Positions 9,858 through 41,327 of a DNA stretch of 64,000 bases are shown here, in pieces. Within the stretch, counting starts at the first letter, position 1; every line of letters begins with the position of its first letter. The position numbers were made by a program, and so were the translations under genes. Under the pieces are notes generated by a model, which was not told the DNA's origin, searched no databases, and saw only the letters and a list, made by a program, of their open reading frames with translations. Source of the DNA: Clostridium pasteurianum DSM 525 = ATCC 6013 (GTDB taxonomy: Bacteria > Bacillota > Clostridia > Clostridiales > Clostridiaceae); the NCBI RefSeq assembly GCF_000807255.1, contig NZ_CP009268.1, positions 3,378,384 to 3,442,383 of the forward strand, read 5' to 3'.

Positions 9858-9988
9858 ATTGAAGCAAGTTCTTAATTCAAGTGGGAATTCTTTTACCCCA
9901 TCTGAATTTTAGAACTGCAAATGCATGGCTTACTTGGCGTTGAACTCCCACTTGAATAAGGGGGAGACTTACGCAAGTTAGTCAGGTT
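9858..9988 (+). repeat. R1 repeat, copy A (131 bp, shortest form)
   Basis: This is one of four related intergenic elements (also at 30458-30687, 35060-35246, 41141-41327). It starts with ATTGAAGCAAG and ends with AGTTAGTCAGGTT. A first stem pairs GTTCTTAATTCAAGTGGG with CCCATCTGAATTTTAGAAC. The later GAACTCCCACTTGAA can pair back to TTCAAGTGGGAATTC. This copy lacks the internal AGAGAACC...GCGTGG module found once or twice in the others. It lies between the transporter terminator and kal, antisense to both genes. Confidence 0.85.
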
Positions 9989-10205
9989 AAAATTATAGTA
10001 TACATAATAATTCGATAATTTAAAGCCAAATACATTATCAAATTATCAAACATTTTGAATATGTTTTATTATAATTCTTTTTTTAAGGCTCTACAATCAA
10101 CGTTCTGTATGTAAATATTCAGTATGTATGTACATGTTGTACATTGTATACCTATTCATTAAATTTCAAGGTGTCCATATTTAATTATTTTTGATGTAGC
10201 ATAAC

Positions 10206-10245
10206 AAAAAGCTGTCTCACAATACATATGTATTGTGAGACAGCT
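10206..10245 (-). terminator. Perfect 36-bp palindromic terminator
   Basis: Bases 10210-10245 form a perfect palindrome (AGCTGTCTCACAATACAT and its complement). On the minus strand it is followed by TTTTTG, so it should end transcripts of the transporter gene before they reach kal. On the plus strand no T run follows. It separates the oxidoreductase/transporter transcript from the kal-kam unit. Confidence 0.8.
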
Positions 10246-10428
10246 AATGATCAATATTATTTTTAAATTTGGAAGTATTTTATTAATTCTATTGATAATA
10301 TATTACAAAAATATATTACTATTTATGAATGTCATAAACTTTTGAATATATACTTTTTTAACAAAATTTCAGTGTTATAATATATGTCATAAAATGATTT
10401 TTAACCAATTAAATTCAAAGAAATATAT

Positions 10429-11835
10429 TTATATCATAAACATAGCAACTACTATAGTAGCTAAAAGTCCTGCAAGTACAGGTATTAAATTTCTTCTAGC
10501 TAGTTCGGTTGGCTTTACATTACATATTGCAGCAACAGGTATAACTCCCCATGGAATTATTGTTCCTCCTCCGACCCATACTGTGGCTATCTGTCCTAGG
10601 GCAGCAAGTACTTCTCTATTTCCACCAGTTGCTGTGGAAAAAGTTTGAGCTAACGATCCCACAAGAGGAAGTCCTGAGAAACCAGATCCATCAAGTCCTG
10701 TTATACCACCTATTGCAGCCTGCATTAAAGCTATTGGAAATTTTGCCATAGGAATTATTCCAGCTAAGTACATTCCTATATCATTAAGTAATCCTCTAGC
10801 ATTAGGCCCTAATATGGTCTTTGCAGTTTCTTCGCTTCCCATGAAGAAAAAAGATGCTATTACAATTACAGGAGCAAATATCTTTATACCAAATATAAAT
10901 CCTTCTTTTAGATTATCTGTTATTCTTTCAAGAGATTCTGATAGATTACCATGTAAAACTGTAACTATAGACATTATTATTATTGCAGTTCCTCCTACAA
11001 GTGCAGTAGCATCTCCACCAACTATGTGATATTTACACATAAAGATTACATCAATTATAAAAGCTGCTGGTGTTATTACAGCAATAAATAATCTAGCTGC
11101 AGAAGACTTACTTTTACTGTTATCTTCTTCTATTACACCATTTACCTCAGCTTCTGGAGCCAAAGTAGCTGCTATTTCATTCTCATACTGAGGATTTTTC
11201 TTAAGGTCACGTAACATCATAAAAAATGCAACTCCAACAGTTACAACACTCATAACTATCCATAATGGAAGCATAGCCTTCATTACAGCTAATGTACTAA
11301 CTCCTGCTGCTTTACCTGTTATTGCAGGTGCCCCCTGTATAAAGAAGTCAGAAGATAAACCCATACCGTGTCCAAATAAATTCATTGCGCTGGCTGCCCA
11401 AATAGCAGGTAATCCAACTTCTAATGCTGCTGGCAGTAATAATGCTCCAATAAGAGCAACTGCAGGTGATGGCCAAATAAACCAGGATACAATTAACATT
11501 ACAAATCCTATTACAAAGAAAGCCATTTTCTTGGTTCTAATAACCTTTTTTATAGGTTTCATCATCAATTCATCTGAACCTATATCACTTAATGATCTTG
11601 ACATAGCAACAACTAATGATATTACAACTATTATTCCTAAAAATTGAGTACCTGATTCCACTACAGAATTATACATAATCTGTACTGCTTTAAGTAAATT
11701 TCCCGAATAAACAATTCCTATTAGGAAGGTACCTATGATACAAGGAAGAACAATTTCTTTTTTCATTAATAAAGTTACAATTATAACTATAGTCATTATT
11801 ATGTAGATGTAATGCAGAATACCTAAACTTACCAT
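10429..11835 (-). CDS. Multi-pass membrane transporter of the lysine cluster, substrate unproven
   Basis: The 468-residue protein is almost entirely hydrophobic helices, about 12 by eye, with a charged loop near residues 215-240 (PEAEVNGVIEEDNSKSK). Its shape and motifs (SPAVALIGALLLPAALEVGLP, GGGTIIPWGVIPVAAICNVKP) recall the ion-transporter superfamily of GntP/CitMHS-like carboxylate and amino-acid permeases. I cannot assign a subfamily with certainty. It is preceded by an FAD oxidoreductase gene (gap 153 bases) and followed by a strong terminator. Its place beside the lysine genes suggests uptake of lysine or a pathway intermediate, or export of a product. This is inference. Confidence 0.75.
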   Translation of the reverse strand: MVSLGILHYIYIIMTIVIIVTLLMKKEIVLPCIIGTFLIGIVYSGNLLKAVQIMYNSVVESGTQFLGIIVVISLVVAMSRSLSDIGSDELMMKPIKKVIRTKKMAFFVIGFVMLIVSWFIWPSPAVALIGALLLPAALEVGLPAIWAASAMNLFGHGMGLSSDFFIQGAPAITGKAAGVSTLAVMKAMLPLWIVMSVVTVGVAFFMMLRDLKKNPQYENEIAATLAPEAEVNGVIEEDNSKSKSSAARLFIAVITPAAFIIDVIFMCKYHIVGGDATALVGGTAIIIMSIVTVLHGNLSESLERITDNLKEGFIFGIKIFAPVIVIASFFFMGSEETAKTILGPNARGLLNDIGMYLAGIIPMAKFPIALMQAAIGGITGLDGSGFSGLPLVGSLAQTFSTATGGNREVLAALGQIATVWVGGGTIIPWGVIPVAAICNVKPTELARRNLIPVLAGLLATIVVAMFMI

Positions 11836-11988
11836 TATTAACTACCTCCATAGTGTAATTTAATTTTAAATTACCTCTAAATTTATTTTAAATTTTGGAA
11901 GTTCTTATACAATACTACTCATTGATAAATAAATTGTATTGTATAAGTATTCCTTAGTTTTAAACCCATAATTATCTATAGAATAATT

Positions 11989-13296
11989 TTATTTTGCTCC
12001 CTGCAGATTTAATTCACTTGGTACTTCAGTCTTATAAGAGAAAATATCTTTTAATTGTAGTTCTTCAACTTTATTTTTAATATCAGAATTATTTATAGTA
12101 TATAATCCTAATTCTTTCATTCTATCGAAAAGTACTGATCCTGAAAAAGTATATTTCTTAGATAATCCTTCTTCTGTTTCCATTTGTTCTTTTACATATG
12201 CAATTGCTTCTCCTATAGCTAATTGTCTTGGAATTTCCAGTTGTTCTTCTCCCTTATAGAATTTAACGCTGTTATATGCAGCTAGAGTTCCTGTAACTAT
12301 TGCTTCAGTATGTCCAACTAAAAGTCCAGCTTTTTCACCAGCGCAGAATAGATTATTTACCCCTTCTACCTTAAGCTTATTATCTCTTGGTGCCATAGCA
12401 AAATATCTCATAGAATTACCTTTTCCACCAGCATATGGATCTTCATATCTTGCATTTTCAAAACCAGGTATCATTCTTAATTTTGCAAGCTCATAATAAG
12501 GTGTCATTAATTTTGCATGTCCTGTATCTAAAAGAATTACATTTTTCTTAAATTCTTTTAAAGCATATTGTTGACAAGCTTTTATATCTAAATGATCCTC
12601 TATAAGTTCTTCTGGTATAGGTATTACAGCTACACCTTTTGTGTTCAACTCTTCAACTATTTCAGATGACAAAGATTCTTTATATAATTTGCATGAACCA
12701 CTCATAGCTCCTACAGAACCATTTGCCTTTTTACCAACATATTCTTTTATGCCAGTAAGTCCTGTCAAACTTACTCTTCCTCCAAAGCTTGGACATCTTA
12801 ATATACACATAGCACATCCATTACCATATTTAGTACAATTATTCATAGGTCCTGCTGTTCCTGTTGTATCTATAAATACATCAGCCTCATAGACATTACC
12901 TTTTGCATCTTCAACGCTGACTATAGAATTATCCTCCATATTAGCTTTTGTCATTCTTGCTTCAAAAACTACATTTACACCAATTTCTTTAAGATAACTT
13001 AATACAGCTGCAGGAGTTTTTCCTATGTCATATAAGTTGGCATGACTATGTCCTGGGAATTCTATATTCTTATGTTTTGAATTATCATCTACAATCTTAA
13101 ATATTTCTCCTCCGCCCATGGCAATTAATTCTTCAGTGGCAGTATAACGTCCATTATTTCTCATTATTCCACCAACTAAGCCTGTTCCTAAAAGCATATC
13201 AGTTCTTTCAAGTAGTGTAACTTCTGCTCCACCTTTTTTTGCACATACAGCTGCTGCACATCCAGACCAGCCTCCACCAACAATAACTATTTTCAT
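11989..13296 (-). CDS. FAD-dependent oxidoreductase with four-cysteine motif
   Basis: The 435-residue protein begins with a dinucleotide-binding fold (IVIVGGGWSGCAAAVCAKKG... ERTD at residues 2-33) and has the second FAD motif near the C-terminus (VNNLFCAGEKAGLLVGHTEA). The architecture resembles the GidA/TrmFO-like and FAD_oxidored families. Between them is C-x6-C-x2-C-x3-C (NCTKYGNGCAMCILRC, about residues 158-173), a spacing that could bind an iron-sulfur cluster. No membrane segment is seen. It is the first gene of the unit with the transporter. The substrate is unknown; a redox step on lysine or a related amino acid would fit the context but is not shown by the sequence. Confidence 0.8.
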   Translation of the reverse strand: MKIVIVGGGWSGCAAAVCAKKGGAEVTLLERTDMLLGTGLVGGIMRNNGRYTATEELIAMGGGEIFKIVDDNSKHKNIEFPGHSHANLYDIGKTPAAVLSYLKEIGVNVVFEARMTKANMEDNSIVSVEDAKGNVYEADVFIDTTGTAGPMNNCTKYGNGCAMCILRCPSFGGRVSLTGLTGIKEYVGKKANGSVGAMSGSCKLYKESLSSEIVEELNTKGVAVIPIPEELIEDHLDIKACQQYALKEFKKNVILLDTGHAKLMTPYYELAKLRMIPGFENARYEDPYAGGKGNSMRYFAMAPRDNKLKVEGVNNLFCAGEKAGLLVGHTEAIVTGTLAAYNSVKFYKGEEQLEIPRQLAIGEAIAYVKEQMETEEGLSKKYTFSGSVLFDRMKELGLYTINNSDIKNKVEELQLKDIFSYKTEVPSELNLQGAK

Positions 13297-14140
13297 ATTT
13301 AGTTCCTCCTTGATTTTTATTACTTTAAATTTAAAATATTTAATGCATTAAGCTATAAATCAACCCTATGTCCATATTAAATTATTTACATTAATTGTAT
13401 TTTTTATGTAACATCAAACATTATACTTAATATTAATTTACTGCAACAAAATTTAACTTCAATAGAATTTATCTATTAAAATTTGGACAATAAATTAACA
13501 ACATATATAATTATTTAACTGATATAATACTAAAATACTTGGGATCTCTAGAATTTTAACAAACATGGGCGTGTCTATTATAAAATACTGTTGATATGAC
13601 AGATGCAAAAGTTTTACAACTGTAATAGAATCCTCAATGTAAATGTATAATATAGATTATTCTTTTCATTTACAATTTTTACTAATCAATTTAACTGTGG
13701 GCAACGGGTTAAATTAATTAGTAATATATCATAATATTTTTAATTAAGCAATAATATATTTAAAAATTTATCAAATAAATAAAATTTATAATTTTTATAA
13801 AAAAATTTTATAATATAAAAAATAGTTCCTTATATTGTAGTAAATTCTATTCATTTCACTATGTTATCCATTTACATGTACAAGTTGTATATTTATATCT
13901 AATTTTTACATACAATTCGTTGATTGTTTGACATATAAAAATAAATTATAATGAGTTTCAAGAAATTCATTAACAACTTGATAATATAATCACTTTAAAA
14001 TTACATTATTATCATCGTCAATACATAATTATAATAATATTAATTGTCAACTTATAAAAAATATTGATTGTCAATTTAAGCCTATTGGTAATATAAGCTA
14101 CCAATAGATGAGATTTACTAATAACTGGAGGAGAAGCCTT
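13297..14140. promoter_or_regulatory. Long divergent control region
   Basis: An 844-base, very AT-rich gap separates the lysine cluster (left) from the aminotransferase cassette (right). I see no credible gene in it. It should hold the promoters of both divergent units. Visible signals are repeated GTCAA-type boxes (ATTGTCAA near 14043 and 14067, CGTCAA near 14018) and an inverted repeat directly before the aminotransferase. An isolated GC-richer patch lies at 13563-13580. No clear -35/-10 pair stands out. Confidence 0.5.
14082..14107. promoter_or_regulatory. Inverted repeat before aminotransferase gene
   Basis: CTATTGGTA (14082-14090) and TACCAATAG (14099-14107) form a perfect 9-bp inverted repeat with an 8-base spacer. 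It ends 33 bases before the start codon. It could be a regulator binding site or a small leader hairpin. No T run follows, so it is not a terminator. Confidence 0.5.
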
Positions 14141-15322: not shown

Positions 15323-15383
15323 CTTAATAAAGTTATTCTCATATATTATTGATAAAAAAATTTATTAAAGGAAGTGTTTATAA

Positions 15384-17653: not shown

Positions 17654-17670
17654 ATTAAAATATCTACTAA

Positions 17671-29180: not shown

Positions 29181-30431
29181 CTATCCAAGCTGCTGCTCTG
29201 GTAAGATCTTGCTGTTTTCTTTTTTTGCTAAAGCCTCATCCTTTTTTTCGTTTATCAAAGTAAAGGCTGCAAAAATAGTAAATACCAGCACTAATATTCC
29301 CATAAACAGATAAGTTTCTCTGAATCCTACTCTATCATACATTTTCCCTACAATAGGTGATAATACCGTAGTACCAATTTGAGTAGCAAATTGAAAACCT
29401 ACAAGATAAAGTACAGAGGATAGACGAGTATCAAAATTGTCTGCTAGATATTTAAATATTGATACTAATAGTGTAGCATACTCAAAGGAATGAATCAGCT
29501 TTATAACTGAAATGCTATAAGGATCACTGACAATTCCCGAACCAACCATACGACCGGTCATTATTATCCCAGCTAAAATCAATCCTCTTTTAGGACCTAT
29601 TTTGTTCACAATGACAGGAGCCAAAAACATCATACCTGCTTCCATGAAAACCTGAAGAGAATTTAAATCTCCAAAAACCTGATTGCCCAATTCTTTTGAA
29701 GGAAACAGCGAAGCATAATATACTGGGAATTGCTGATCGTAAACCATATATACACATACAGCTCCCACCATGTAAATCATGAAGAACCAAAAATCTTTTA
29801 ATTTAAAAAGCTCTTTAACATTTTTAAATCCTACTGATTCAGCCTGTTTAGCCTCTACAGTGCTTACATCAACTCTCATGAATAGAACAAGAATAATCAG
29901 TACTGCAGCCGAAACCGTTGCCATCCAAAAGTTTATATTAGGACTAATATTGAACACTCTTCCTGATACAAAGGCAGCACTGGCTGATCCAATTGACCCC
30001 CACATACGTGCACGTCCAAATTCAAAATCATATTTTCTTCCAGCTTTTTCAATATAGGATTCCACACTGGCGCAACCTGCTATAAAAGTTAAACCTAGGT
30101 AAAGCCCTCCAATCAAAGCTCCAACTATAAAATTACTTTTTAAAAGCGGTCCATATACATATATATAGAAAGGTCCAGCTAATGCAAGCAGTGCAGTTAT
30201 AAAATATAGTACATATTTCTTTAATCCGATACGGTCAGATATGTATCCGTATATAGGCTGAAAAATCATAGCAAAGACAGCGTTTACAGAAAATACAATC
30301 CCAGTTTGTGCTCCAGTTAAATTTATCTTTTCTCCAAGCCATATAGCAAAGAAAGAAAAACAGGAAGCATAGGCAAAGAAAAACAATAAAAAATATGCAC
30401 TTAGATTCCAATACATAATTCTTTTTTTCAT
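29181..30431 (-). CDS. MFS oligosaccharide:proton symporter (LacY/CscB type)
   Basis: The 416-residue protein has twelve hydrophobic helices. The N-terminal pattern (YWNLSAYFLLFFFAYASCFS, AIWLGEKINLTGAQTGIVFS, YGYISDRIGLKK) matches the LacY/CscB group that takes up lactose, sucrose, raffinose or melibiose with a proton. The ATG at 30431 has GAGGAG seven bases upstream. Sucrose phosphorylase lies upstream and an alpha-glucosidase downstream, so sucrose or a related alpha-glucoside is the best guess. Repeat R1-B begins 27 bases upstream, between it and sucrose phosphorylase. Confidence 0.85.
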   Translation of the reverse strand: MKKRIMYWNLSAYFLLFFFAYASCFSFFAIWLGEKINLTGAQTGIVFSVNAVFAMIFQPIYGYISDRIGLKKYVLYFITALLALAGPFYIYVYGPLLKSNFIVGALIGGLYLGLTFIAGCASVESYIEKAGRKYDFEFGRARMWGSIGSASAAFVSGRVFNISPNINFWMATVSAAVLIILVLFMRVDVSTVEAKQAESVGFKNVKELFKLKDFWFFMIYMVGAVCVYMVYDQQFPVYYASLFPSKELGNQVFGDLNSLQVFMEAGMMFLAPVIVNKIGPKRGLILAGIIMTGRMVGSGIVSDPYSISVIKLIHSFEYATLLVSIFKYLADNFDTRLSSVLYLVGFQFATQIGTTVLSPIVGKMYDRVGFRETYLFMGILVLVFTIFAAFTLINEKKDEALAKKENSKILPEQQLG

Positions 30432-30457
30432 AGATATTCTCCTCATATATTTATTTC

Positions 30458-30687
30458 ACCTGACTAACTTGGCGTAAGTCTCCCACGCACTCTGTGAAAG
30501 TGATTCACACCAAATTAAAATTTGGGTTCTCTACTTGCACTCTGTGAAAGCGACCAAATACAAAATAAATTTTGTTTTGTCTGCTTTTCTTCAAGTGGGA
30601 GTTCGACGCCAAGTAAGCCATGCATTTGCAGTTCTAAAATTCAGATGGGGTAAAAAAATCCCCACTGAATTAAGAACTTGCTTCAAT
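30458..30687 (-). repeat. R1 repeat, copy B (230 bp, two internal modules)
   Basis: This is the longest R1 copy, on the minus strand. From 30687 it begins ATTGAAGCAAG, has the first stem (TTAATTCAGTGGGG / CCCCATCTGAATTTTAG), then GAACTCCCACTTGAA. It then has two successive modules, each with an AT-rich hairpin flanked by AGA(G)AACCCAAAT-like and CTTTCACAGAGTGC. It ends in CCAAGTTAGTCAGGT. It lies between sucrose phosphorylase and the symporter, in sense with that transcript. Confidence 0.85.
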
Positions 30688-30705
30688 AGTCAGTTTAAAA
30701 ATTGT

Positions 30706-30913
30706 ATTTCCAGTAATTAAAAATGACTACTAAGGCACATGAAAATAAATAATAAGTCAAAGATGCGACGGGTATTTTGAATCATACAAGGAAATAGGTT
30801 CCGCAGATAGTGAGCTATCTAAGGGTTCTGTTGACGCAGTAGGATTTAAAATAGACTAGCATACTGACTAGTTATTTATTTGAATGTGCCTAAAGAAAAA
30901 GATTACTGGAAAT
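30706..30913. ncRNA. Candidate structured RNA (or inverted-repeat element), 208 bp
   Basis: Outer arms ATTTCCAGTAAT (30706-30717) and ATTACTGGAAAT (30902-30913) are exact complements. Inside, 30733-30759 pairs with 30865-30891 (GGCACAT/ATGTGCC, AAATAAATAA/TTATTTATTT, AGTCA/TGACT). Further in, TATTTTGAATC pairs with GATTTAAAATA (11 bp), with a tetraloop-size hairpin AGATAG-TGAG-CTATCT. TGCG (30764) with CGCA (30835) would cross that helix as a pseudoknot. No ORF explains the region. The size and pseudoknot would suit a family such as raiA RNA, but I cannot confirm the family or strand. A non-autonomous inverted-repeat transposon is the alternative. Confidence 0.5.
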
Positions 30914-30964
30914 TATATTTACTATAATGCTAATCCTTGCAAGATAGGCCTCAACCTGCTAAAC

Positions 30965-32413
30965 TTATGTCAATTCCTTAATCTCTTTACTGTCTGCATC
31001 AAAATAATTAATTTTAAATTTATGAGTTTTAAGATCAGCCTTTAAAACTGCTTTAAGTTCACCCTTTTCCCAAGTTATTTCTAAAACTTCTTCACTAACT
31101 GTATCAGTTATGGAATAATCACCACCAAAAGCTCCGTAAGAATTTCTGAATTCCATAAGTTTTAACAGTCTCTTCATGACAGGTCTTTTCATATTTTCTT
31201 TTACTTCTTCTTTACTATAGTAATGACGATTTATATTTCTTCCTACTTTTGTTTTTTCTAATAATTCTATATCATTTTCTCCAGCCATAAGTCCTACATA
31301 ATATACCTGAGGTATTCCTGGTGCAAAAAACTGGATAGCTCTTGCCAAAATATAGGCATCATCATTATTACCAAGAGCTGAATAATAGGTACAATTAATC
31401 TGATATATATCAAGATTATTGTAGGCAGTGGTATTATATATTTTCTTTACATTTGCTCCTTTAGTGAATAGTGCTTCTCTTGTCATTTCTACTTCCTCAT
31501 CTGTCAACAAATCCTTTACATCCACTACCCCAATACCATCATGAGTATCTAATGTAGTAAACTGCTTTTTAGGAGACATTTCAAGCCATTTTATAAGATT
31601 TTTATTCACTCCACTATATAGGGCATGAAGCATAATCATAGGTAATGCAAAATCGTATATCCAGTGACCTTTTTCTGCTATTTTCATTTGTATTGAATAG
31701 TGTTCATGTATTTCTGGTAATATATCTACATTCAATGGTTCTAATATTTCCTTTACTTCATCAAGAAGTTCCCAGGTATCTGGTTCTATGAAGAAGCAAT
31801 TTGTTCCAACTTTTTTAGTAGCATAGGCAAAAGCGTCGAGTCTTATTAATGAAGCCTTCCTCTTTGCCATATTTGTAAGAGTATCCTTTATAAACTTCTT
31901 AGTAACCTCTGATTTTACATTTAAGTCTACCTGTTCACTGTCAAAGGTACACCAAACTTTTTCACTGGTATCATCTGCAAATTCTACATCTATATAAGGT
32001 GCCCTAGGCTTTCTCTTATATATTAAATCTACATCTTCCTGGGTAGGCTCACCTTTAGGCCAAAAATCTTTATATCTTATAAAGAAGTCTTTATAAGGTG
32101 ATTTATCTTTGTTTTTCTGAAAATCCTTAAAATATTCAGAACTTTTGGATATGTGATTTATCATAAAGTCATACATTAAATAGAAACTTTCACCTAATTT
32201 TTTAATATCTTCCCAATCCCCAAAAGCAGGATCTACTTTTTCATAACCCATTGGTGCAAATCCTCTGTCTGCGGATGATGGAAAGAAGGGTAATATATGT
32301 ACCCCCCCTATTGCTTTTTTAAAATAAGTTGTTAAAAGGTTTTCAAGTTCACTTAAATTTTTACCTAGACTATCTGCATAAGTAATAAGCATTATTTTAT
32401 TTTTAACTGCCAT
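30965..32413 (-). CDS. gtfA: Sucrose phosphorylase (GH13_18)
   Basis: The enzyme splits sucrose with phosphate into alpha-glucose 1-phosphate and fructose in the cytoplasm. At 482 residues it has the usual length. The catalytic set is visible: nucleophile Asp193 in [12 protein letters not shown], acid/base Glu234 in LPEIHEHY, and stabiliser Asp292 in TLDTHDGIG. The N-terminus [14 protein letters not shown] and [20 protein letters not shown] are typical of the family. A promoter and LacI-type operator lie 300 bases upstream. The leader also carries a 14-bp hairpin and an R2 element. The symporter gene follows after about 530 bases that hold R1-B and the structured element. Confidence 0.93.
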
Positions 32414-32515
32414 AATTATTTCCTCCTAATTGTATTTTTAGAATTAATTTCAATCTATACCTTAAAATCATATTTATAATTATTATACAGAATACTGTAT
32501 ACATTGTAATAAACA

Positions 32516-32550
32516 GATTTCTAAGTATCTGCATTTGATACTTAGAAATC
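32516..32550. promoter_or_regulatory. Hairpin in sucrose phosphorylase leader
   Basis: GATTTCTAAGTATC (32516-32529) and GATACTTAGAAATC (32537-32550) form a perfect 14-bp stem with a 7-base loop. It lies between the predicted promoter (32717-32745) and the start codon at 32413. On the minus strand it is followed by TGTTTATT, a weak T tract, so it could be an attenuator or merely a stable leader hairpin. Confidence 0.5.
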
Positions 32551-32572
32551 GTTGTCCTTTATAGGGTAAATT

Positions 32573-32640
32573 GTTATCCAGAGACGTACCCCACTGTACA
32601 AAGGATGGGAGTATTACATCTGTTAGTCATCGGATAAAAA
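32573..32640 (+). repeat. R2 element, copy a
   Basis: It begins GTTATCCAGAGACGTA and ends TAGTCATCGGATAAAA; TTATCC (32574) and GGATAA (32632) can close a stem. The same ends recur at 35338-35423, and the right half recurs at 43681-43715. The middle differs between copies and contains small hairpins (GTAC...GTAC here). It lies in the leader of sucrose phosphorylase, antisense to that gene. Confidence 0.65.
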
Positions 32641-32745: not shown

Positions 32746-33026
32746 CAAAAATGTACTTGTTTTCATAAATAAATTATCAGCTGAAAATGTAAATTTATAT
32801 TATTGAGCTTTAATATACATTTGTTTGAACAAAAATACATCTTATGTATTTTATTCATTTAACAGGTTATTTTTTTCATATAAAAAAGCGGCCACAGCCG
32901 CGTTATTTCGCTTCGCTCAACTTCTTTTGGGCGAAGCCCTTTAATTAGACCCATTTCTTAGCATATCTATTTCATAATATTTTTATAAAGCTAAAACCTT
33001 TGCGAAGCATATTGATGCTCCGCATT

Positions 33027-33296
33027 TTAATACTCATAAGTTATACCATGAACTCCGTCATATTTTCTTGGTCTCATTATAGCTCCGCATTTCTCGCAAC
33101 TAAATGTAGGAGGTTCAATTACATTTTCATCATCTATTTCATCAAACATCTCAACTACATCCCTTGGTATATATTCTTCCACTCCACATTCTGTACATAT
33201 ATATAAGACTCCGTCTTCTTCAATTAAATTTTCTTTCAATTTAGCTTTATATTTTGCCCTTTGTTTATCTTTTATTTTTTTATTCTTTTTAGCCAT
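33027..33296 (-). CDS. Small zinc-ribbon protein next to IS91 transposase
   Basis: The 89-residue protein has a very basic N-terminus (MAKKNKKIKDKQRAKYKAKLK) and two CxxC pairs (ICTECG and SCEKCG) separated by an acidic stretch (EMFDEIDDENV). The spacing suggests one zinc ribbon. The gene starts 15 bases after the transposase stop on the same strand and ends in a hairpin (AGCAT-ATTG-ATGCT, 33002-33023), so the two are probably co-transcribed. I do not recognise a named family. It could be a DNA-binding helper or passenger of the element. Confidence 0.7.
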   Translation of the reverse strand: MAKKNKKIKDKQRAKYKAKLKENLIEEDGVLYICTECGVEEYIPRDVVEMFDEIDDENVIEPPTFSCEKCGAIMRPRKYDGVHGITYEY

Positions 33297-33311
33297 AATA
33301 ACTACCTTCCT

Positions 33312-34538
33312 TTATACATATAATGGCTCTATTTTATCACGAATTATCCCCTTAATCACACCATAATTGTACATTATCTCTTCAATTTTTCTTTTGTTTT
33401 CACCTATTATTTTCTCTTTAAATTTTTCTCTTACACTTACATTTTTATAGTATATATCATGAAATTTCATCTGTATTCCACACTTTTCACATTTTAATGG
33501 ATTCACTCCAAATGTAAGAAGTATTCTTGTTTGCCAATTATTAATTTTTCTTTTGAACTCAGCAACTTTTTCATTTACCAACTTAAAAAATTTATTTTTA
33601 TGTCTTGTGTTTTTAGCATATATTCCATAATATCTTATCATCTTAAAATTCTTTTCTGGTATGTGTCTTATTACTCTACCTATAAAATCAATAACATCTA
33701 TTTCCTCTACAACTTCTTCACCATCTTCATGTCTTTCATAACGAAAAGTTACTTTTTTACCATCATACTTTATTATTCTTGATTCAGCGATAGCTGGTCT
33801 TGCTGTATATCTTCCAACATACTTTCCTGCTTGCTTTGCTGTTTTTATTTCACCTTTTCCATATACATAAAATCCATTCTCTAACCTTTTATATAGCTTA
33901 TTTTTTAATTTTTTAAATTCTTTTTTTCCACTTTTAAGATTAATTCCTATTTCGTCTAACAATATTTTTTGCCATCTTTTCCTTAGTGCTGTATAATTTA
34001 TATGTTTTGTATTCCTCCAAATTGTAATTTCTCCAGCACCACCTTCGGTGACAATTAAGTGAACATGTGGATTCCATTTTAAGTCTCTTCCAAAAGTATG
34101 AATTACTGAGATTATTCCTGGTGTAAAACATTCTTTTTTATTTAAATCTCTAAACCAGCTCATAATTGCTTTTGCTGAACATTTAGGTAATAATGATAAT
34201 AGTTTTCTATCCCTAGCAAAATATATTCTAAGTTCCTGTGGAATTGTAAATACCATATGTCTATGCTTTGAGTTAATGAGTCTTGCCACCATTTCATCAG
34301 ACCATTCTTCAGATTTTTTCTTACCACATGAGGTACAAAATCTACTTTTACAGCTAAATCCAACTCTTTTTATATGACCACAATTTTCACACTTAAACTC
34401 AATAAATCCATTATCTAAGGATTTACAATTAATCATCTTATCAACTTCTCTACTTATGTTAGCTCTAATTTTCCCTTTATATATCTCACTGAATTTTTCC
34501 CAATTATCCACAAATATTTGTTTTATAACACCTTGCAT
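33312..34538 (-). CDS. IS91-family transposase (HUH, zinc-binding N-terminus)
   Basis: The roughly 408-residue protein starts with a zinc-binding domain (CENCGHIKRVGFSCKSRFCTSCGKKKSEEW). The HUH motif WNPHVHLIVTEGG holds the metal-binding histidines. The tyrosine motif AGKYVGRYTARPAI has two tyrosines three residues apart, as expected for a Y2 rolling-circle transposase. A further zinc pair (CEKCGIQM) is near the C-terminus. All expected motifs are present without frameshift, so it may be active. The start is uncertain: ATG at 34538 (MQGVIKQIF), with a frame extending to 34550. Confidence 0.9.
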   Translation of the reverse strand: MQGVIKQIFVDNWEKFSEIYKGKIRANISREVDKMINCKSLDNGFIEFKCENCGHIKRVGFSCKSRFCTSCGKKKSEEWSDEMVARLINSKHRHMVFTIPQELRIYFARDRKLLSLLPKCSAKAIMSWFRDLNKKECFTPGIISVIHTFGRDLKWNPHVHLIVTEGGAGEITIWRNTKHINYTALRKRWQKILLDEIGINLKSGKKEFKKLKNKLYKRLENGFYVYGKGEIKTAKQAGKYVGRYTARPAIAESRIIKYDGKKVTFRYERHEDGEEVVEEIDVIDFIGRVIRHIPEKNFKMIRYYGIYAKNTRHKNKFFKLVNEKVAEFKRKINNWQTRILLTFGVNPLKCEKCGIQMKFHDIYYKNVSVREKFKEKIIGENKRKIEEIMYNYGVIKGIIRDKIEPLYV

Positions 34539-34910
34539 AATCATCACCAATCACTAAATTTGCTAATAATTATATCAAAAATCCTATTCCAAAATATTAC
34601 TTGTAATATTTTCCTCAAACTTCTAACATTAGATTTTTCAAGCCCTGCCGGGCAATATTTTTATACAAAAAATTTTTAAATTCCTAATATATAAAAAATA
34701 ATTAAATTTAATAATTAATTTAATCACCTTAAAAAAATGAAAAGACATACGCATATATATGACATGAATAAAGATAGAGAATAGCATAAATATAATTAAA
34801 TATGGAATAAAAGGGGGATAGAACAAATTTAAAAGATTATCATGAAAAATTTATGCTTATTTACCAGTAAAAAATTGCTTTTAAGTGGATTTTATGGCAT
34901 ACGGACAATA

Positions 34911-35059: not shown

Positions 35060-35246
35060 ATTGAAGCAAGTTCTTAATTCAGGTGGGGATTCTTTTACAA
35101 CATCTGAATTTTAGAACTGCAAATGCATGACTAATTTGGTGCGAATCACTTTCACAGCGTGTAAGCAGAGAACCCAAATCTTTTTTTTGATTTTGTGTGA
35201 GGACTGTACAGAGTGCGTGGGAGACTTACACCAAGTTAGTCAGGTG
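35060..35246 (+). repeat. R1 repeat, copy C (187 bp)
   Basis: It has the standard ends (ATTGAAGCAAG to CAAGTTAGTCAGGTG) and first stem. Its second half differs: TGACTAATTTGGTGCGAATC replaces the usual TGGCTTACTTGGCGTTGAAC and pairs well with GACTTACACCAAGTTAGTCA at the far end. The base changes keep the outer pairing, which argues for a selected structure. It lies between operator O4 and the GH31 start, in sense. Confidence 0.85.
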
Positions 35247-35337
35247 AAAATTGTTTTGCCGTCTCTATTTTTATTTAAGACAACCTAACATGAAGTAAAC
35301 GAAGTTCTCTATTTATGACCTATGAAACTTGTAAATC

Positions 35338-35423
35338 GTTATCCAGAGACATATCAGCTGTTACATCATACTTTCAAAGAATACGATAGAAGTATTCTAG
35401 ATGATGATGGTCATCGGATAAAA
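35338..35423 (+). repeat. R2 element, copy b
   Basis: It has the ends GTTATCCAGAGACATA and GTCATCGGATAAAA, with TTATCC/GGATAA able to close the structure. The interior folds as ACATCAT/ATGATGA around GAATAC-GATAGAA-GTATTC. It sits 33 bases before the GH31 start codon, in the sense orientation, unlike copy a. The ends are well conserved, the middle is not. Confidence 0.65.
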
Positions 35424-35455
35424 CAAAAATTATAATAATTAATGGGAGTGAAACT

Positions 35456-38056
35456 ATGAAAATCAAAAGAAAATATTCATCAAAAAAACTACTTATTATT
35501 ATATTTGCGCTTTCAATAGTGTTTTCTCCAGTTTATTTTGCTCAACAAACTTTTGCAGATGATTTTCCTACAGATGCATTTCATCCACACGATGATATTC
35601 CACTCGATAAAAACAACCTTCAAAAGTCTATGAGCGTTTTCAGTGTTACTAAATTGGAGAATGGCATAAAATTGAATTTAGGTAATCAAAATGCCTTTAT
35701 ACGATTACTCACATCTGACATAGCCAAAATTTCACTTTTAAATAAGGGTGATTCTGAATACACCTCTCCAGGTATTGATAAAACAGATTGGAAAAAACCT
35801 AATTTCAGAGTAAAAGAAACAAGAAACAATATTGTCCTTATAACTGACAGTATAACTATCAACATTAAGAAAAGTCCTTTTGGCATAAGATATCTTGATA
35901 AAAATGGTAAAGTAATAAATGAAGATGCAAATCAAGGTATGGGCTACGAAAATGGTAAACCATATATATTTAAAAAAGCCGATAAAGATGAAAATTTTTA
36001 TGGTCTTGGAGAAAAAGCAGACGGTCTTAACAAGCGCGGTAAAACTGAAGCCATTTGGCATCAAGATCCGTTTCCTTATGAGTCAAGATATCTATATGAA
36101 GCTGTTCCATTTTTTATAGGTTTGAAAGATAAAAAAGCATATGGAATTCTATTTGATAACACATACCGCACATACTATGATTTTGCTAAAGAAAGTGATG
36201 ACTATTATTACTTTTATGCAGATGGAGGGAAACTAACCTATTATTTCTTTAATGGACCAAATATAAAAGACGTATTAGACCGCTATACTGATCTGACAGG
36301 TAAACTTAACCTTCCCCCAGAATGGGCTTTGGGATTTCAACAATCAAGCTGGTCATATAATCAGAAAGACGCTGAAGAAGTAGCTAAAACCTACCGCGAA
36401 AAAAATATTCCTGCAGACGGTATCATGTTTGATATAGGCTGGATGGATGACTATAAAGCTTTTACATGGGGAAAAAATGTTCCAGATCCCAATGGATTAA
36501 AAAATACTTTTGATAATCTCAATTTTAAACTTACAAACATATTTGATCCAGCTATTCGTGCAATACCAGGCTATTCTGTTTATGAGGATGGAACTAAAAA
36601 AGATCTTTGGGTAAAAAATCCTGATGGAAGTAACTTAATGGGAAAATTGTGGCCTTGGGATCTGTCTGGTGAACCTAATTCCGTTTATCCAAATTTTATG
36701 AGTCAAAAAACTCGTGACTGGTGGTCCATGCAGTATAAACCAATGTTCGATTCAGGCGTTGATGGTATTTGGAACGATGTTAATGAACCTGTAAGTTTTA
36801 TTGCAAAAGATCACTGGACACTGCCTCTTAATGCAGTTTTTCAGGATGACAATGGTAAGAAATATACTCACGAAGAAGTTCATAATATTTTTCCTCTTAT
36901 GGAGGAACAAGCGTCTTATAATGCCTTTAAGTATCTGAAACCTAACGTTCGTCCATTTATCTTATCAAGATCTGGATATACAGGCATTCAGCGTTATGCA
37001 GCCATATGGACTGGAGACAATCACAGCACTTGGGAGCACATGAAACTTTCTATATCAATGAACTCAAACATTGGACTTGCTGGTGCTCCTTTTGTAGGTA
37101 ATGACATCGGTGGATTTACAAAAAATATATTGGGAGGAGAAATCTGCACACCTGAGTTATTTGCCAGATGGGTTGAAATGGGTGCATTCCTTCCATTTGC
37201 CCGTGATCATTACAATAATGATGGCGATAGCCCTGGAGAAAAACAAAATATTAATAGGCAAGAACCATGGCAATTTGGTCAAGAAGTTGAAGATATAAGT
37301 AGAAAATATATCAACATGCGTTATGAACTTATGCCTTATTTACAAAACGCTTTCAAACAGGCTCATGAAACTGGTAATCTCATTCAACAGCCTCTAGTTT
37401 ATCAGTTTCAAAACGATCCAAATACGTACAACAATGAAGATCAGTTCATGTTTGGAGACTCAATAATGATTGCACCAATAGTTACTAAAGGGGCTACATC
37501 ACGTAGTATTTATCTTCCAAAAGATACAAAATGGGTGGACTACTGGACAGGTGAAAAGTATGATGGCGGCCAGACTATTACAAAACAAGCTGCTCTTGAT
37601 ACACTCCCTATATATGTAAGACAAGATTCTATTATTCCAAGACGTGAAGTTCAGCAATATGCTGGAGAAAAACCATTGAAAAATTTAATACTTGATACCT
37701 ATCTTGATCATGATGCATCATACAGCTATTATCAAGATGATGGAAGTACAGAAAATTACAAGAAAGGTCAATTCAATGTGACTGACTTCAATATTGAGAA
37801 GAAAAGTAATCACATTGAGTTTGAACAGAACAAAAAAACTCAAAAATATAAATCTGACATTGAGTCCTATACGCTGAAACTCAATAAGTCAGTAGATCCC
37901 AAAAATGTACAAGCAGCTAACAATAAATATGAAAAAGTAAGCAGTTTAGATAAATTGAATAACAAGAAAAGCGGCTACTATTTTGACAATAATACCAATA
38001 CTCTTTACGTAAAAATACCTGTAAATGAGAATCACAAAGTAAGAATTCAACAATAA
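35456..38056 (+). CDS. Exported GH31 alpha-glucosidase
   Basis: The 866-residue protein starts with a Sec signal peptide (KRKYSSKK, then LLIIIFALSIVFSPVYFA, cleavage probably near QQTFA-DD). A GH31 N-terminal beta domain, the (beta/alpha)8 barrel and C-terminal beta domains follow. The nucleophile is Asp441 in GIWNDVNEP and the acid/base Asp521 in WTGDNHS. It should release glucose from the non-reducing ends of alpha-glucans or oligosaccharides outside the cell. No cell-wall anchor is seen, so it may be secreted. It lies behind operator O4 and is followed by its own terminator. GGGAGTG precedes the ATG. Confidence 0.93.
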   Translation: MKIKRKYSSKKLLIIIFALSIVFSPVYFAQQTFADDFPTDAFHPHDDIPLDKNNLQKSMSVFSVTKLENGIKLNLGNQNAFIRLLTSDIAKISLLNKGDSEYTSPGIDKTDWKKPNFRVKETRNNIVLITDSITINIKKSPFGIRYLDKNGKVINEDANQGMGYENGKPYIFKKADKDENFYGLGEKADGLNKRGKTEAIWHQDPFPYESRYLYEAVPFFIGLKDKKAYGILFDNTYRTYYDFAKESDDYYYFYADGGKLTYYFFNGPNIKDVLDRYTDLTGKLNLPPEWALGFQQSSWSYNQKDAEEVAKTYREKNIPADGIMFDIGWMDDYKAFTWGKNVPDPNGLKNTFDNLNFKLTNIFDPAIRAIPGYSVYEDGTKKDLWVKNPDGSNLMGKLWPWDLSGEPNSVYPNFMSQKTRDWWSMQYKPMFDSGVDGIWNDVNEPVSFIAKDHWTLPLNAVFQDDNGKKYTHEEVHNIFPLMEEQASYNAFKYLKPNVRPFILSRSGYTGIQRYAAIWTGDNHSTWEHMKLSISMNSNIGLAGAPFVGNDIGGFTKNILGGEICTPELFARWVEMGAFLPFARDHYNNDGDSPGEKQNINRQEPWQFGQEVEDISRKYINMRYELMPYLQNAFKQAHETGNLIQQPLVYQFQNDPNTYNNEDQFMFGDSIMIAPIVTKGATSRSIYLPKDTKWVDYWTGEKYDGGQTITKQAALDTLPIYVRQDSIIPRREVQQYAGEKPLKNLILDTYLDHDASYSYYQDDGSTENYKKGQFNVTDFNIEKKSNHIEFEQNKKTQKYKSDIESYTLKLNKSVDPKNVQAANNKYEKVSSLDKLNNKKSGYYFDNNTNTLYVKIPVNENHKVRIQQ

Positions 38057-38130
38057 ATATAAGAATTTATTACAAAACTTAAGCACCTATAAATTATTAT
38101 GTACTGACCCCCCTTATAAATTATATAATG

Positions 38131-38180
38131 AAAGTACACAATTATTGCAAAATAAAAATGCATAAAATTGTGTACTTTTT
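38131..38180 (+). terminator. Terminator of exported GH31 gene
   Basis: AAAGTACACAATT (38131-38143) pairs with AATTGTGTACTTT (38166-38178), and a run of T follows. It starts 75 bases past the GH31 stop codon. Confidence 0.8.
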
Positions 38181-38239
38181 CTTTGAACTAAGCTGTATAT
38201 TTTATCATTATTTTTTCAACTTTAGTGTTTGTATACCTA

Positions 38240-38476
38240 TTACCTTACATCAATATTATTTGCAATAATAATTGCAAAGACATTTATCCTTTCATAAGAA
38301 TCATTAATTAAAGGAACTTGAAAGCAGTATTGTTTATGCCTTTTAAAATATTCTACTTCTTTTATATACTTATATATTTTATCAGCTATATTTTTTTCAC
38401 CTTCGGTACCATTAACACTAGGTATATTAACTAAATCTAAACTCAATTTTTCTATTTCTTCAGCTAAATTATTCAC
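38240..38476 (-). pseudogene. RocB-like peptidase remnant (N-terminal 78 residues)
   Basis: The 78-residue reading matches the start of RocB/M20-type arginine-utilisation proteins (VNIPSVNGTEGEKNIADKIYKYI; the later RINVFAIII). Full proteins are near 550 residues, and the zinc-binding and catalytic parts are absent. The reading ends at a stop and is followed within 60 bases by the GH31 terminator, so the rest was deleted. It lies 29 bases after the deiminase-family gene, which suggests an arginine-related pair before decay. Confidence 0.75.
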
Positions 38477-38505
38477 TTAACATCACCTCATATTAAATAA
38501 AATAA

Positions 38506-39357
38506 TTATATTCTCTTAAGTGGAAAAGTCATACAATGAGGTCCTCCACCACTTTTAAGTATTTCTTCTAGTTCTAGTTCTATCACCTTAATTCCACAAT
38601 CCTTTAGTTTTTTATTTACTTTAGTATTTGATTTGAGGGATATTACTCTTCTATTTCCCAATGCCTGTAGATTGCAATGATGCTCAAAAACACCTTCTTG
38701 AGGTATATCAATCAATTCAAACTCTTTTTCTTCTAATATACGAAGGAAATGATCTGGTAGAGCTGACTTACATGCTACTGCTATTTTCTCATCTACAATA
38801 TTAAAGCACATATCTAAATGAAGATTTTCTTCTGCACATTTTATAGGGATTATATTATATCCAAATTTACCGATTTGATCTCTTATTTCTCCTATAGCAG
38901 TTTCATCTGTTCTGGCAATAACACCTATTGCTAAAGTATTATCATCTAAAAACCAAAAGTCTCCACCTTCAAAATAACCTTTACTCACCTTTGCAACACA
39001 AGGTACTCCCAATTCTTTCATTTTCTTTTTATATGCTTCTGTTTCACCATATCTAATTGGTTTTTTAAAATTTCCTAAAATATATCCTTCTCTTATGCAG
39101 GCACCAAAATCCCTTGCAAACACTTCATTTGTAAGATTCTCTTCCGGCTCCATTAAAACTACTTCAACACCATTTTCTTCATAGGCCTTTATTAAATCTT
39201 TATGTTCTTTAATACACTTTTCTATATTTAGACCATTATTTTCTTTAATCCACTTCTCAGCTATAACATTAATAGGCTGAAGTTTCATATAATCAGGTGA
39301 ACAAAGTAGTACTTTCTTTAATATACCAGTTGAGTTTTTTACAAAAAATTTATTCAT
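38506..39357 (-). CDS. Arginine deiminase/dimethylargininase family hydrolase
   Basis: The 283-residue protein belongs to the guanidino-group-modifying (pentein) superfamily. Visible motifs are FARDFG, KGYFEGGDFWFLDD, the catalytic histidine in HLDMCFNIV and the catalytic cysteine in GGGPHCMTFPL near the C-terminus. It is shorter than classical arginine deiminase (about 410 residues) and closer to dimethylarginine dimethylaminohydrolase-like proteins. It should hydrolyse the guanidinium carbon of arginine or a derivative. The ATG at 39357 follows GGGAGAT. A truncated RocB-like gene follows it. The precise substrate is not determined by the sequence. Confidence 0.85.
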   Translation of the reverse strand: MNKFFVKNSTGILKKVLLCSPDYMKLQPINVIAEKWIKENNGLNIEKCIKEHKDLIKAYEENGVEVVLMEPEENLTNEVFARDFGACIREGYILGNFKKPIRYGETEAYKKKMKELGVPCVAKVSKGYFEGGDFWFLDDNTLAIGVIARTDETAIGEIRDQIGKFGYNIIPIKCAEENLHLDMCFNIVDEKIAVACKSALPDHFLRILEEKEFELIDIPQEGVFEHHCNLQALGNRRVISLKSNTKVNKKLKDCGIKVIELELEEILKSGGGPHCMTFPLKRI

Positions 39358-39511
39358 ATAATATCTCCCAATTTCATATAATATATTTCTTAAAGTTTAA
39401 AAAATTTAAGTGTATTTAATAGTTTCATGACTAAAAAATAAATTCATAATAATATATGAACTTCTGAAATAAATTATATAACAAATAAAAAGTAAAGTAA
39501 TTTTTTATACT

Positions 39512-39812
39512 TTATTTACTCTCAATAACTGCCAAAGCAACAGCCCCCATTACTCCTGCATCATCTGTTCCAAGTGCTGCAGTAATAATCTTACAGGATT
39601 CTGCCATGGCTTTAAAACATATTGTATTTACTACTTCTTTTATCTTGTTAAATACAATGTCTCCGCCCTTTGAAACTCCTCCTCCTATGATAACCATCTC
39701 AGGATCAAATATCGCTATCATATTGGCAACACATATTCCCAAATAGTTAAGGCTTGTATCTAAAATTCTAGAAGCCACTGCATCTCCTTGTTTAGCTGCT
39801 TGAAACACTTCA
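39512..39812 (-). pseudogene. ROK kinase C-terminal fragment
   Basis: About 300 bases match the 3' end of the ROK kinase gene at 57819-58116 with roughly 95% identity (about 16 substitutions and a 3-base insertion). The encoded piece covers the last 99 or so residues (AAKQGDAVASRILDTSLNYLG, DPEMVIIGGGVSKGGD). The N-terminal ATP and sugar sites are missing. Homology stops abruptly at CTTCA (39812), where a LevR-derived piece begins. An open frame of 116 residues spans the junction but starts in out-of-frame LevR DNA, so a functional product is unlikely. Confidence 0.9.
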
Positions 39813-40202
39813 GCAGTTTTCATTTGCAATAGCTTGAATACTGCTGGCCGTTGTATTTCCATGAGCTATAATTAACCCTTGAAGTTCTATATTTTCCTCA
39901 ATATACTCTTGAAAAAATATAGTATTCATAATATCCAAACATCTAGATAACCCAGTTACAATTGTTCCCAATTCTTCTCTAAGCTTTATAACTATGAATA
40001 AGCTCTCGGAGATACACCTTTTAAAAAATTTATTACTCTTTTAAAATCCAGTTTAATTATCATATCATCCTGTAGTATCAGCACTAAACATAACATTAAT
40101 TCCATAGATTCTCCAGTACAGTGAATACCATAACGTTTTATAATTTTCACAAATTTTTGCATATAGCTTTCTCTCACAAATATATTTTCATCTAAAAATA
40201 AG
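39813..40202 (-). pseudogene. LevR internal fragment, near-identical to 51158-51548
   Basis: These 390 bases match the middle of the LevR-type gene (51158-51548) with about 7 differences, roughly 98% identity. One is a 1-base deletion near 39995 that breaks the frame. The piece covers the end of the first regulatory domain and the start of the EIIA-like domain. It is joined on the left to ROK-derived and on the right to SNF2-derived DNA. The high identity indicates recent duplication or gene conversion. Confidence 0.92.
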
Positions 40203-40299
40203 AGGAAATTAAATCATTATCTATGATTCTCATCCCCTTAGAGTGATTTTTCCCGTTAATCTGTTCATTGAATGTTTGTAGTAATAAATTTCTATCCAT
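40192..40299 (-). pseudogene. SNF2 helicase N-terminal fragment
   Basis: The ATG at 40299 opens a 35-codon reading that begins MDRNLLLQTFNEQINGKNHS. It matches the first residues of the SNF2 protein at 21383 (MDKNLLMQIFNEQITGKNHS) and stays similar through DNDLISS, then hits a stop in LevR-derived DNA. The ribosome site (AAGGTGATAC) is also conserved. Base identity is only about 75-80%, so it derives from a diverged paralog and not from a recent copy of the local gene. Confidence 0.88.
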
Positions 40300-40316
40300 T
40301 GTATCACCTTAGTAAT

Positions 40317-40781
40317 TTATTTGCTGATTCTATCGGCTATGCAAGAAGCTGCATAGGAATAGGGCTTAATCTGATATTTATATCTCGTTCCTGTAATCCA
40401 CCCAGTAATCTCGCTGATCAATTCAAATGTTTTACCATTTTTATTAGTTCCAATATCCACATGAATTTCTATATCTTCCTTTATATTAGCTTTCTCAAAG
40501 CTTTTAGAAAGTTTTGAAGCAAGCTCTATAAGTGCAGTTTCATAATATATCTTTTGTCTAACATTAGTTATCTTAGGAACATACTTTATTTCATAAAAGA
40601 AAATACCACCTCTGCCAATTCTATGAACTGCTACAACTACCACTACTTTAGTCAAACTTCTATTCTGAGAATCTATTCCAACAGTGATTTTGTATTTATA
40701 ATTCTTGTCGCTTAATATGAAACCTTTTATGCAATTTACCATTTCATTAACAGAAACATTACCAAAGGTCTTGCCATACAT
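40317..40781 (-). CDS. ykuK: YkuK family RNase H-like protein
   Basis: The 154-residue protein matches the YkuK (former DUF458) family with a ribonuclease H-like fold. Typical stretches are YKYKITVGIDSQNRSLTKVVVVVAVHRIGRGG and EIHVDIGTNKNGKT. The conserved acidic residues of the fold are Asp in GIDSQ and Asp in HVDIG. The function is unknown; some members are linked to spores or stress. I use the ATG at 40781 after AGGAGG (9 bases); a longer frame to 40823 runs through that site. It stops 17 bases before the SNF2 fragment, so an SNF2 paralog probably once followed it. Confidence 0.88.
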   Translation of the reverse strand: MYGKTFGNVSVNEMVNCIKGFILSDKNYKYKITVGIDSQNRSLTKVVVVVAVHRIGRGGIFFYEIKYVPKITNVRQKIYYETALIELASKLSKSFEKANIKEDIEIHVDIGTNKNGKTFELISEITGWITGTRYKYQIKPYSYAASCIADRISK

Positions 40782-41140
40782 TACTGTAAACCTCCTAAAA
40801 ATATTTTTTAGAAATTTCTCCATATTAATTTTTGCAACAAATTATTAAATAATCTTTTAATAAATATACTATGAATTATTGGTATATTTGTTTCATTCAC
40901 TTATAACTAGATACTCTAAGCATATTCAAATAAATAACTATCGGTATCTTTTACTTACTATTTGTTTTCATACGCCTTATTTTTATTTTTTATCTATAAT
41001 ATTTATTATACTTTTTTAAATATTTACTGCCTATAGTCTAAATTATACCATTAATTTGCTCAATACTAGTAAAACTTAACTTAAAAAGGAGCTATCTCAA
41101 AATAAATATTTGTTAAATTTGAGAACGGCCTCATTTAATC
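40782..41140. other. Intergenic region without recognised gene
   Basis: This AT-rich stretch contains the YkuK ribosome site and promoter area. It also has a 24-base sequence at 40918-40941 that recurs (one mismatch) at 7335-7358, and a weak inverted repeat near 41094-41131 (CTCAAAATAAA / TTTGAG). I see nothing else. Confidence 0.4.
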
Positions 41141-41327
41141 ATTGAAGCAAGTTCTTAATTCAGGTGGGGATTCTTTTACCCCATCTGAATTTTAGAACTG
41201 CAAATACATGGCTTACTTGGCGTTGAACTCCCACTTGAAGAAAAGCAGAGAACCAAAATCTTTTTTTGATTTTGTGTGAATCGCTTTCGCTGTGTGCGTG
41301 GGAGACTTACACCAAGTTAGTCAGGTT
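41141..41327 (+). repeat. R1 repeat, copy D (187 bp, one module)
   Basis: This is the cleanest one-module copy. It begins ATTGAAGCAAG. Stem 1 is GTTCTTAATTCAGGTGGGG with CCCCATCTGAATTTTAGAAC around ATTCTTTTA. GAACTCCCACTTGAA follows, then the module AGAGAACC...GTGTGCGTGG, and the end is CCAAGTTAGTCAGGTT. It lies between the AraC terminator and ykuK. Confidence 0.88.

Follow-up and report, generated by a model that had tools for sequence, protein, structure and literature searches.

A modular two-hairpin repeat of Clostridium pasteurianum, very probably a non-autonomous mobile element

Introduction

How does a short piece of DNA that holds no gene of its own come to lie at place after place in a bacterial genome, with two hairpins and a varying load of smaller repeats? 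The question is raised by R1, a repeat found four times in a stretch of 64,000 nucleotides (nt) from Clostridium pasteurianum DSM 525, the whole of which we call the window. A preliminary description, made from the letters of the window, took R1 for either a non-autonomous mobile element or a family of structured RNAs, and knew of no described element with this layout. On the last point it erred, for the pneumococcal BOX repeat has such a layout (PMC3049150).

Here, we argue for the first of the two possibilities. R1 is very probably a non-autonomous mobile element, to judge from its many dispersed copies, its sharp ends, two empty sites and its patchy distribution; taken as a whole, the likely picture is of some 130 nt plus cargo moving as a folded single strand, with the enzyme supplied in trans. 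To our understanding, and in part from the available text of PMC3049150, repeats of the modular, BOX-like kind have long been without a known mover. R1 joins a BOX-like layout to defined ends, an insertion rule, empty sites and cultured hosts (Clostridium magnum and Sporotomaculum), and with these in hand it becomes possible to test how modular repeats lacking an enzyme of their own move and grow.

Copies, skeleton and ends

All four copies in the window, A to D, lie where they had been described, their common ends and strong first hairpin are real, and they carry none, two, one plus a fragment, and one of the internal modules, respectively. The coordinates below leave out the neighboring target bases TKAAA; those for the parts of copy D were set by hand.

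9859..9986, plus strand: R1 copy A, no module; right flank target TTAAA at 9987-9991
30459..30686, minus strand: R1 copy B, two modules (types c, b); flank TGAAA at 30454-30458
35061..35244, plus strand: R1 copy C, one module plus fragment; flank TGAAA at 35245-35249
35132..35161, plus strand: segment of the hairpin II 5' arm of copy C with module type b sequence, putative recombinant junction; exact in L009
41142..41325, plus strand: R1 copy D, one module; flank TTAAA at 41326-41330
41147..41201, plus strand: hairpin I of copy D (fold, covariation)
41208..41234, plus strand: hairpin II 5' arm of copy D (fold, covariation)
41244..41297, plus strand: module type a of copy D, in the hairpin II loop
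41298..41325, plus strand: hairpin II 3' arm and 3' end of copy D (fold)

Four copies, as it turns out, are a small part of the family. In the genome (4.35 Mb, one contig), a search with copy D returned 40 places including itself, at E 7.7e-57 or better, these being all 40 of the candidates scored, out of 183; every match spans query bases 1-4 to at least 139 of 187, stopping at base 139 or 157 where the copy has more modules. Chance would not come near to such a result. Reading by script adds five (window copies A, B and C and two neighbors), and 15 more come from a covariance model built on the 5' domain, among 23 places scored, both ends being present in 15/15. This genome holds at least 60 copies of R1. 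Eight of the 23 model places were already among the 40, which by capture-recapture gives ~115 copies, an order of magnitude only, as both samples favor copies near the consensus.

The skeleton of R1, ~130 nt long, consists of hairpin I (AGTTCTTAATTCAGGTGGGG paired with CCCCATCTGAATTTTAGAACT), a short linker (GCAAATGCA) and the long, imperfect hairpin II (TTACTTGGCGT...CTCCCAC paired with GTGGGAG...ACGCCAAGTTAG), whose loop carries zero to four modules of ~50 nt. Among the 43 copies of this genome that have modules, 21 have one, 16 have two (one of these, L059, is a miscounted fragment), four have three and two have four. With the modules sorted into three types, type a being everything other than b or c, these copies show 13 different arrays, and type a comes first in 21 of the 22 multi-module copies.

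The ends were read in 46 copies, 44 from this genome and two from genome G003. At the 5' end, an A is followed across the boundary by TTGAAGCAAG (the A in 38/46 copies, the TT in 45/46); the 3' end is AGTCAGGT, then T or G (23 each), then AAA in every one of the 46. The KAAA that follows CAGGT lies outside the search motif, and the AAA recurs in 15/15 further copies of this genome. The 5' TTGAAG is as constant as the 3' end, but it lies inside the search motif, for which up to five mismatches were allowed (L023, one of the 40 places of the genome search, escaped the 5' motif). By eye, the two ends show no terminal inverted repeats. At position 1158 of L025 stands a remnant of R1 in which the 5' end is joined to the 3' end through a shared TCAGGTG, that is, an internal deletion.

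R1 was said to be intergenic and to have no open reading frame (ORF) of its own, and so it is: among mechanically called ORFs of 80 aa or more, none holds a whole copy (44 copies of this genome, ~1.5 kb on each side). Two extend into a copy by over 30 nt (L008, L016), and seven overlap an end by 1-28 nt. Of the 42 copies that have an ORF on each side, 17 share the direction of both genes, 12 stand between divergent genes, nine run against both neighbors and four stand between convergent genes. Relative to replication, no orientation bias was seen by eye from the coordinates, base 1 being taken as the origin.

Empty sites and the insertion rule

What did these places look like before R1 came? 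Two independent comparisons give an answer. At the first, the copy in L218 (genome G043) reads CATAAACA[TTGAAG...CAGG]TTAAAAATTTTT, and the same place is empty in G045, G044 and G042 (CATAAACATTAATCATTTC in G045); by eye, the element now provides the stop codon of the upstream gene. At the second, a copy of Candidatus Formimonas warabiya (L152) lies inside a relic that has two paralogues without the element, L178 and L193 (TATCCA[...]TTAAAATAAC filled, TATCCATTTGGATAAC empty). In both, insertion took place at A^TKAAA and left the target unduplicated, apart from one or two T's that are ambiguous; the flanks of filled and empty sites differ by other substitutions. (A third match, L142, is a match to itself.) R1 can give a gene a new stop codon by its insertion and can place a strong hairpin beside it.

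Distribution in other genomes

An exact scan of a named genome collection for the 3' end gave 58 stretches, from Ca. Formimonas warabiya, C. magnum, Sporotomaculum syntrophicum, three Desulfoscipio geothermicus metagenome-assembled genomes and Peptococcaceae UBA6129. The 5' end is present upstream in 56/58, and most stretches have the whole skeleton (L129, L136, L138, L142 and L143 are truncated). Some Formimonas copies are 99% identical to one another. Within the family to which the window genome belongs, and with that genome counted, 16/206 genomes match the R1 model, five with a match above 93 bits and the other 11 at or below 45 bits; one place was read in each of these 11, and eight follow the plan of the sister families R2 and R3 (see below), two are hairpin I alone (L302, L304), and L311 is ambiguous. 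In a sample of the Formimonas phylum, 18/299 genomes match, five above 66 bits (one of which, G403, is a hairpin I piece); among its weak matches, L322 and L326 resemble decayed R1 and L324 and L325 resemble R2 or R3. Because 16 or 23 candidates were scored per genome, weak matches may have been missed, and the copy numbers are lower bounds. The distribution of R1 is patchy across distant Clostridia. Plasmids and phages gave no R1 match by distant blastn, and viral contigs had no exact match to the 3' end.

The lone hairpins of L302 and L304, of R3 type, stand directly behind genes (one EF-P-like by eye), perhaps in use as terminators.

Cargo and sister families

The modules differ from host to host. 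In Formimonas the modules are of the form GGGGACATTCC...GTGTGTCCCC, and additional hairpins stand at other joints; C. magnum has a module of its own. Of the 49 module words counted in the 58 named loci, five fall outside R1 (L113, L148). The GGGGAC/GTCCCC tag of the Formimonas modules is found elsewhere as well: at Y1 transposase loci of Formimonas and Sporotomaculum (L204, L203, L202, L184), repeats bearing it lie on both sides of the Y1 genes.

R1 has relatives of the same two-hairpin plan. R2 runs from ATAAACAGAGTTCTT to CATCGGATAAA, and R3 (which includes L325) from ATAAAGTGAAACTT to ATCGGATAAA. R2 parallels the end rule of R1 with ATAAA at both ends: in 27 rows read (26 distinct, L074 having been read twice; 16 from this genome), an A follows GGATAA in 25, GGATAA itself being inside the search motif. 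Double changes occur in nine of 23 predicted pairs among 15 chosen R2 and R3 copies. The window holds three R2 sequences.

32509..32638, plus strand: R2 copy without module (ATAAACAG...GGATAAA)
35337..35421, plus strand: R2 remnant, hairpin II part
43683..43717, plus strand: R2 3' end fragment

The R2 copies of this genome have modules whose best match is, in six of six, a module of its own R1, and in G003 the best match of R2 modules is another G003 R2 in 10 of 11; the pool of own R1 modules (73) is much larger than the others, which favors best matches to R1. From such likeness we infer that modules pass between families within one genome. This suggests cargo capture: one skeleton bears unrelated modules in different species, and within one genome it has modules in common with a sister family. 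The earlier idea that R1 grows by duplicating its modules survives in part: adjacent modules are often alike, but the modules are also common to R2, and the cargo varies between species.

Copy C bears on the same matter. Its changed bases had been said to keep the outer pairing, but these are not compensatory point changes; instead, 30 nt of the 5' arm of hairpin II (35132-35161) are a piece of module, exactly matching one in copy L009. Judged by that exact match, copy C seems to be a recombinant, one in which the incoming arm pairs by coincidence.

Fold and decay

Is the fold kept because each copy does something where it sits, or because the element needed it to get there? As RNA, the window copies fold with z-scores of -5.0 (A), -7.4 (D), -7.3 (B) and -3.5 (C). 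Between genomes the pairing covaries. In 26 copies that hold little cargo or none, taken from nine genomes (a set of 24, less four truncated copies, plus six further ones), 98.1% of 1005 cells pair, against 94.9% in shuffles, and 10/39 pairs have changes on both sides, against 4.6, counts that are inflated by relatedness and by a structure derived from the same alignment; none of 500 shuffles reaches the observed level of pairing or of double changes, and slid controls pair at 21-48%.

Within the genome, the picture is one of decay. Across 45 copies, 1809 paired cells are unchanged, 42 are G.U, 40 A.C, 68 other mismatches, five double changes and 16 gaps (three of the 48 pairs fall in module sequence). 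Paired positions change at 4.5% and unpaired ones at 5.6%, and copies of this genome show no strand asymmetry of the kind that selection on an RNA would leave. (A mixture of 52 foreign copies, with 73 G.U, 111 A.C, 203 other mismatches and 65 double changes, was not used, as composite copies spoil the alignment.) Our reading is that the fold is selected during spreading and drifts neutrally after insertion: since pairing covaries between genomes yet decays neutrally within one, the fold seems to matter for spreading rather than for any task of the single copy where it lies.

Two copies stand apart. In hairpin II, L155 has perfectly matched arms and L116 two mismatches, with 4-11 in the rest of the 90 copies scored. 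This is suggestive, and only that, of one arm having been copied from the other, a self-templated repair.

What moves R1?

The preliminary description proposed hairpin ends of the IS200/IS605 kind, and as a lead this stands. Like these insertion sequences (IS), R1 makes no target duplication, has a fixed pentanucleotide beside one end and has subterminal hairpins. Read on the bottom strand, with a slash for the boundary, R1 is TTTMA/CC-hairpin II-linker-hairpin I-TTCAA/ and R2 is TTTAT/...TTTAT/, so that the pentanucleotides at the two ends resemble each other (TTCAA and TTTMA in R1, TTTAT and TTTAT in R2). This is the order given for IS200/IS605 in the available text of PMC6006769: a target pentanucleotide on the left flank, a similar one ending the element and hairpins between. 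The hairpins of R1 are longer than the 20-25 nt stated there (PMC6006769). It is plausible, from this comparison, that R1 works like an IS200/IS605 element without necessarily being one. We put movement by an HUH single-strand mechanism at an even chance.

If so, the element would move as a folded single strand whose hairpins are recognized by an HUH-type enzyme supplied in trans. The loop of hairpin II would tolerate foreign repeats because it is not read, so such repeats could lodge there and then spread with the element; module number would shift by unequal exchange or slippage between copies, those of R2 included, and each copy would drift once inserted.

Several observations weigh against this account, in whole or in part, and we gather them here. 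No copy of R1 has been seen to move, and an empty counterpart was found for only two of 145 R1 and R2 copies compared with available sequence. The KAAA rule is broken in L221, L222, L225, L299, L301, L320 and L333, and for copies from the named genomes the search pattern itself dictated the 3' end. The left guide of IS200/IS605, 4 nt in the available text of PMC6006769, has no room in R1, where 2 nt separate the flank from hairpin II (CC alone in three folds; a few more bases in copy A, with its weak outer pairs). The downstream gene points the same way as R1 in 29/42 copies (p ~0.02, normal approximation by hand), a weak orientation bias that a regulatory role would likewise predict. No enzyme for R1, and no full-length relative enclosing a transposase of the kind the preliminary description suggested looking for, was found among the Y1, TnpB and IS91-like loci examined. 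R1 or R2 ends frame none of the 50 distinct Y1 places examined (52 loci, out of 88 Y1 matches); G018 has R2 copies and no Y1 match; and a TnpB (PF01385) match is absent from Formimonas, Sporotomaculum, G043 and G024.

The rest of the search for an enzyme reads much the same. Single end-like matches occur at Y1 loci L170, L174, L176, L178, L189/L214 and L191. None of 24 TnpB loci is framed by R1 or R2 ends; near TnpB lie a separate R1 copy (L257), an R2 piece (L263) and single end-like matches (L261, L262, L273, L275). Whether a genome has Y1, TnpB or Y2 genes does not track whether it has R1 or R2. A hunt for an autonomous copy through unpaired ends, in all loci then available, gave none that convinced us: the few R1 5'-like matches with a 3' end 0.8-1 kb further on are weak matches beside normal copies, and several dozen R2 3' ends are unpaired, their 5' end having escaped the search pattern. 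PATEs, the non-autonomous derivatives of IS200/IS605, retain the ends of a known IS, as the available text of PMC7290912 has it; in the loci examined, no tnpA or tnpB with R1 ends was found.

Other explanations

Could R1 be a set of structured cis-regulatory or small RNAs kept at each site, as 5' leaders, for example, or mRNA stabilizers? The strong fold, its covariation between genomes, the 29/42 orientation count and the position of copy B, ~11 nt ahead of a same-strand, MFS-like ORF (its start called mechanically), all speak for it. Yet within the genome, G.U and A.C changes are about equal (42 and 40), mismatches outnumber double compensations by 68 to 5, and paired sites change nearly as often as unpaired ones; R1 is missing from orthologous or paralogous sites, and all four gene arrangements occur. 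Rfam (4227 families) gives no gathering-score match in the window, and in a search of 13 loci at E up to 10 all matches fall short of gathering; low-score microRNA matches were read as chance matches on long palindromes. With pairing so freely lost, a structured functional RNA family is not supported, and we regard per-site RNAs as very improbable.

BOX deserves a closer look. Its boxA-boxB(n)-boxC elements are parasitic and non-autonomous in their authors' view, and like R1 they have outer parts that pair, variable middle repeats that lie mostly outside the pairing, a similar size range and a high copy number (PMC3049150, available text). These likenesses speak for a BOX-type origin for R1, with movement by an unknown DDE transposase as for the pneumococcal BOX. 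However, by the same source (PMC3049150) BOX carries inverted repeats at its ends and duplicates its target, and R1 has no duplication at its two empty sites and no inverted ends by eye; unlike BOX, it has modules in common with a sister family and cargo that depends on the species. By these differences, in a comparison of layout and not of sequence, we judge a BOX-type origin improbable. MITEs derived from DDE elements have terminal inverted repeats, which by eye the ends of R1 are not. Mid-size foldable mobile repeats of Firmicutes include bcr1 and other repeats of Bacillus cereus; we know of no module array in bcr1. R1 itself we did not find described in the literature searched, short sequence words included, a coverage that left subscription journals mostly outside.

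A REP/REPIN-type repeat moved by TnpA-REP (RAYT) is unlikely, though it has attractions. REPs are, like R1, high-copy palindromes that can fold as a single strand and are thought to spread in trans (PMC6006769, available text). RAYT-length Y1 genes, so labeled by length alone, exist in several R1 genomes (here L168, an ORF of 218 aa), and the Formimonas modules have GGGGAC/GTCCCC tags like those of the repeats beside Y1 genes. But the 50 unframed Y1 places and G018, counted above, tell against this too: among the loci examined, R1 flanks no RAYT gene, and no link to a Y1 gene was found; and REPs are 21-65 nt with a GT[AG]G foot (PMC6006769, available text), whereas R1 is larger, at 130-350 nt, and lacks the foot.

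There is also, in the window, an IS91-family element (~32880-34692, minus strand; ORF 33312-34550 with domains Y2_Tnp and Zn_Tnp_IS91), which lies between R2 and R1 copies, and IS91 elements likewise make no target duplication. Dependence of R1 on such a Y2 enzyme is nonetheless largely refuted. The ten full-length IS91-like copies of the genome, with ORFs that differ by 0-4 of 1239 nt, have ends unrelated to those of R1. By eye, every one of them lies in a T-tract, in many cases following a terminator-like hairpin, and most bear a hairpin of this sort at the right end themselves (L285 differs there). A Y2 match is lacking in G003, G008, G018, G024, G040, G043, G045 and G046.

More broadly, and quite tentatively, one may imagine R1, R2 and R3 as a single undescribed superfamily of enzyme-less, single-strand mobile DNA that has crossed wide gaps within the Clostridia, with the hairpin II loop as an open dock for other repeats and an unrecognized HUH-like enzyme as its mover.

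Neighboring genes

At 29181-32413, a sucrose-phosphorylase-like ORF and the MFS-like ORF mentioned above stand on either side of copy B, all on one strand (names by eye). The stretch at 39512-40311 has near-identical counterparts at 51149-51547 and 57819-58116, with 94-100% identity over 193-251 nt. By their look, we take these to be ROK-type sugar kinase genes, and their likeness suggests a recent duplication or conversion.

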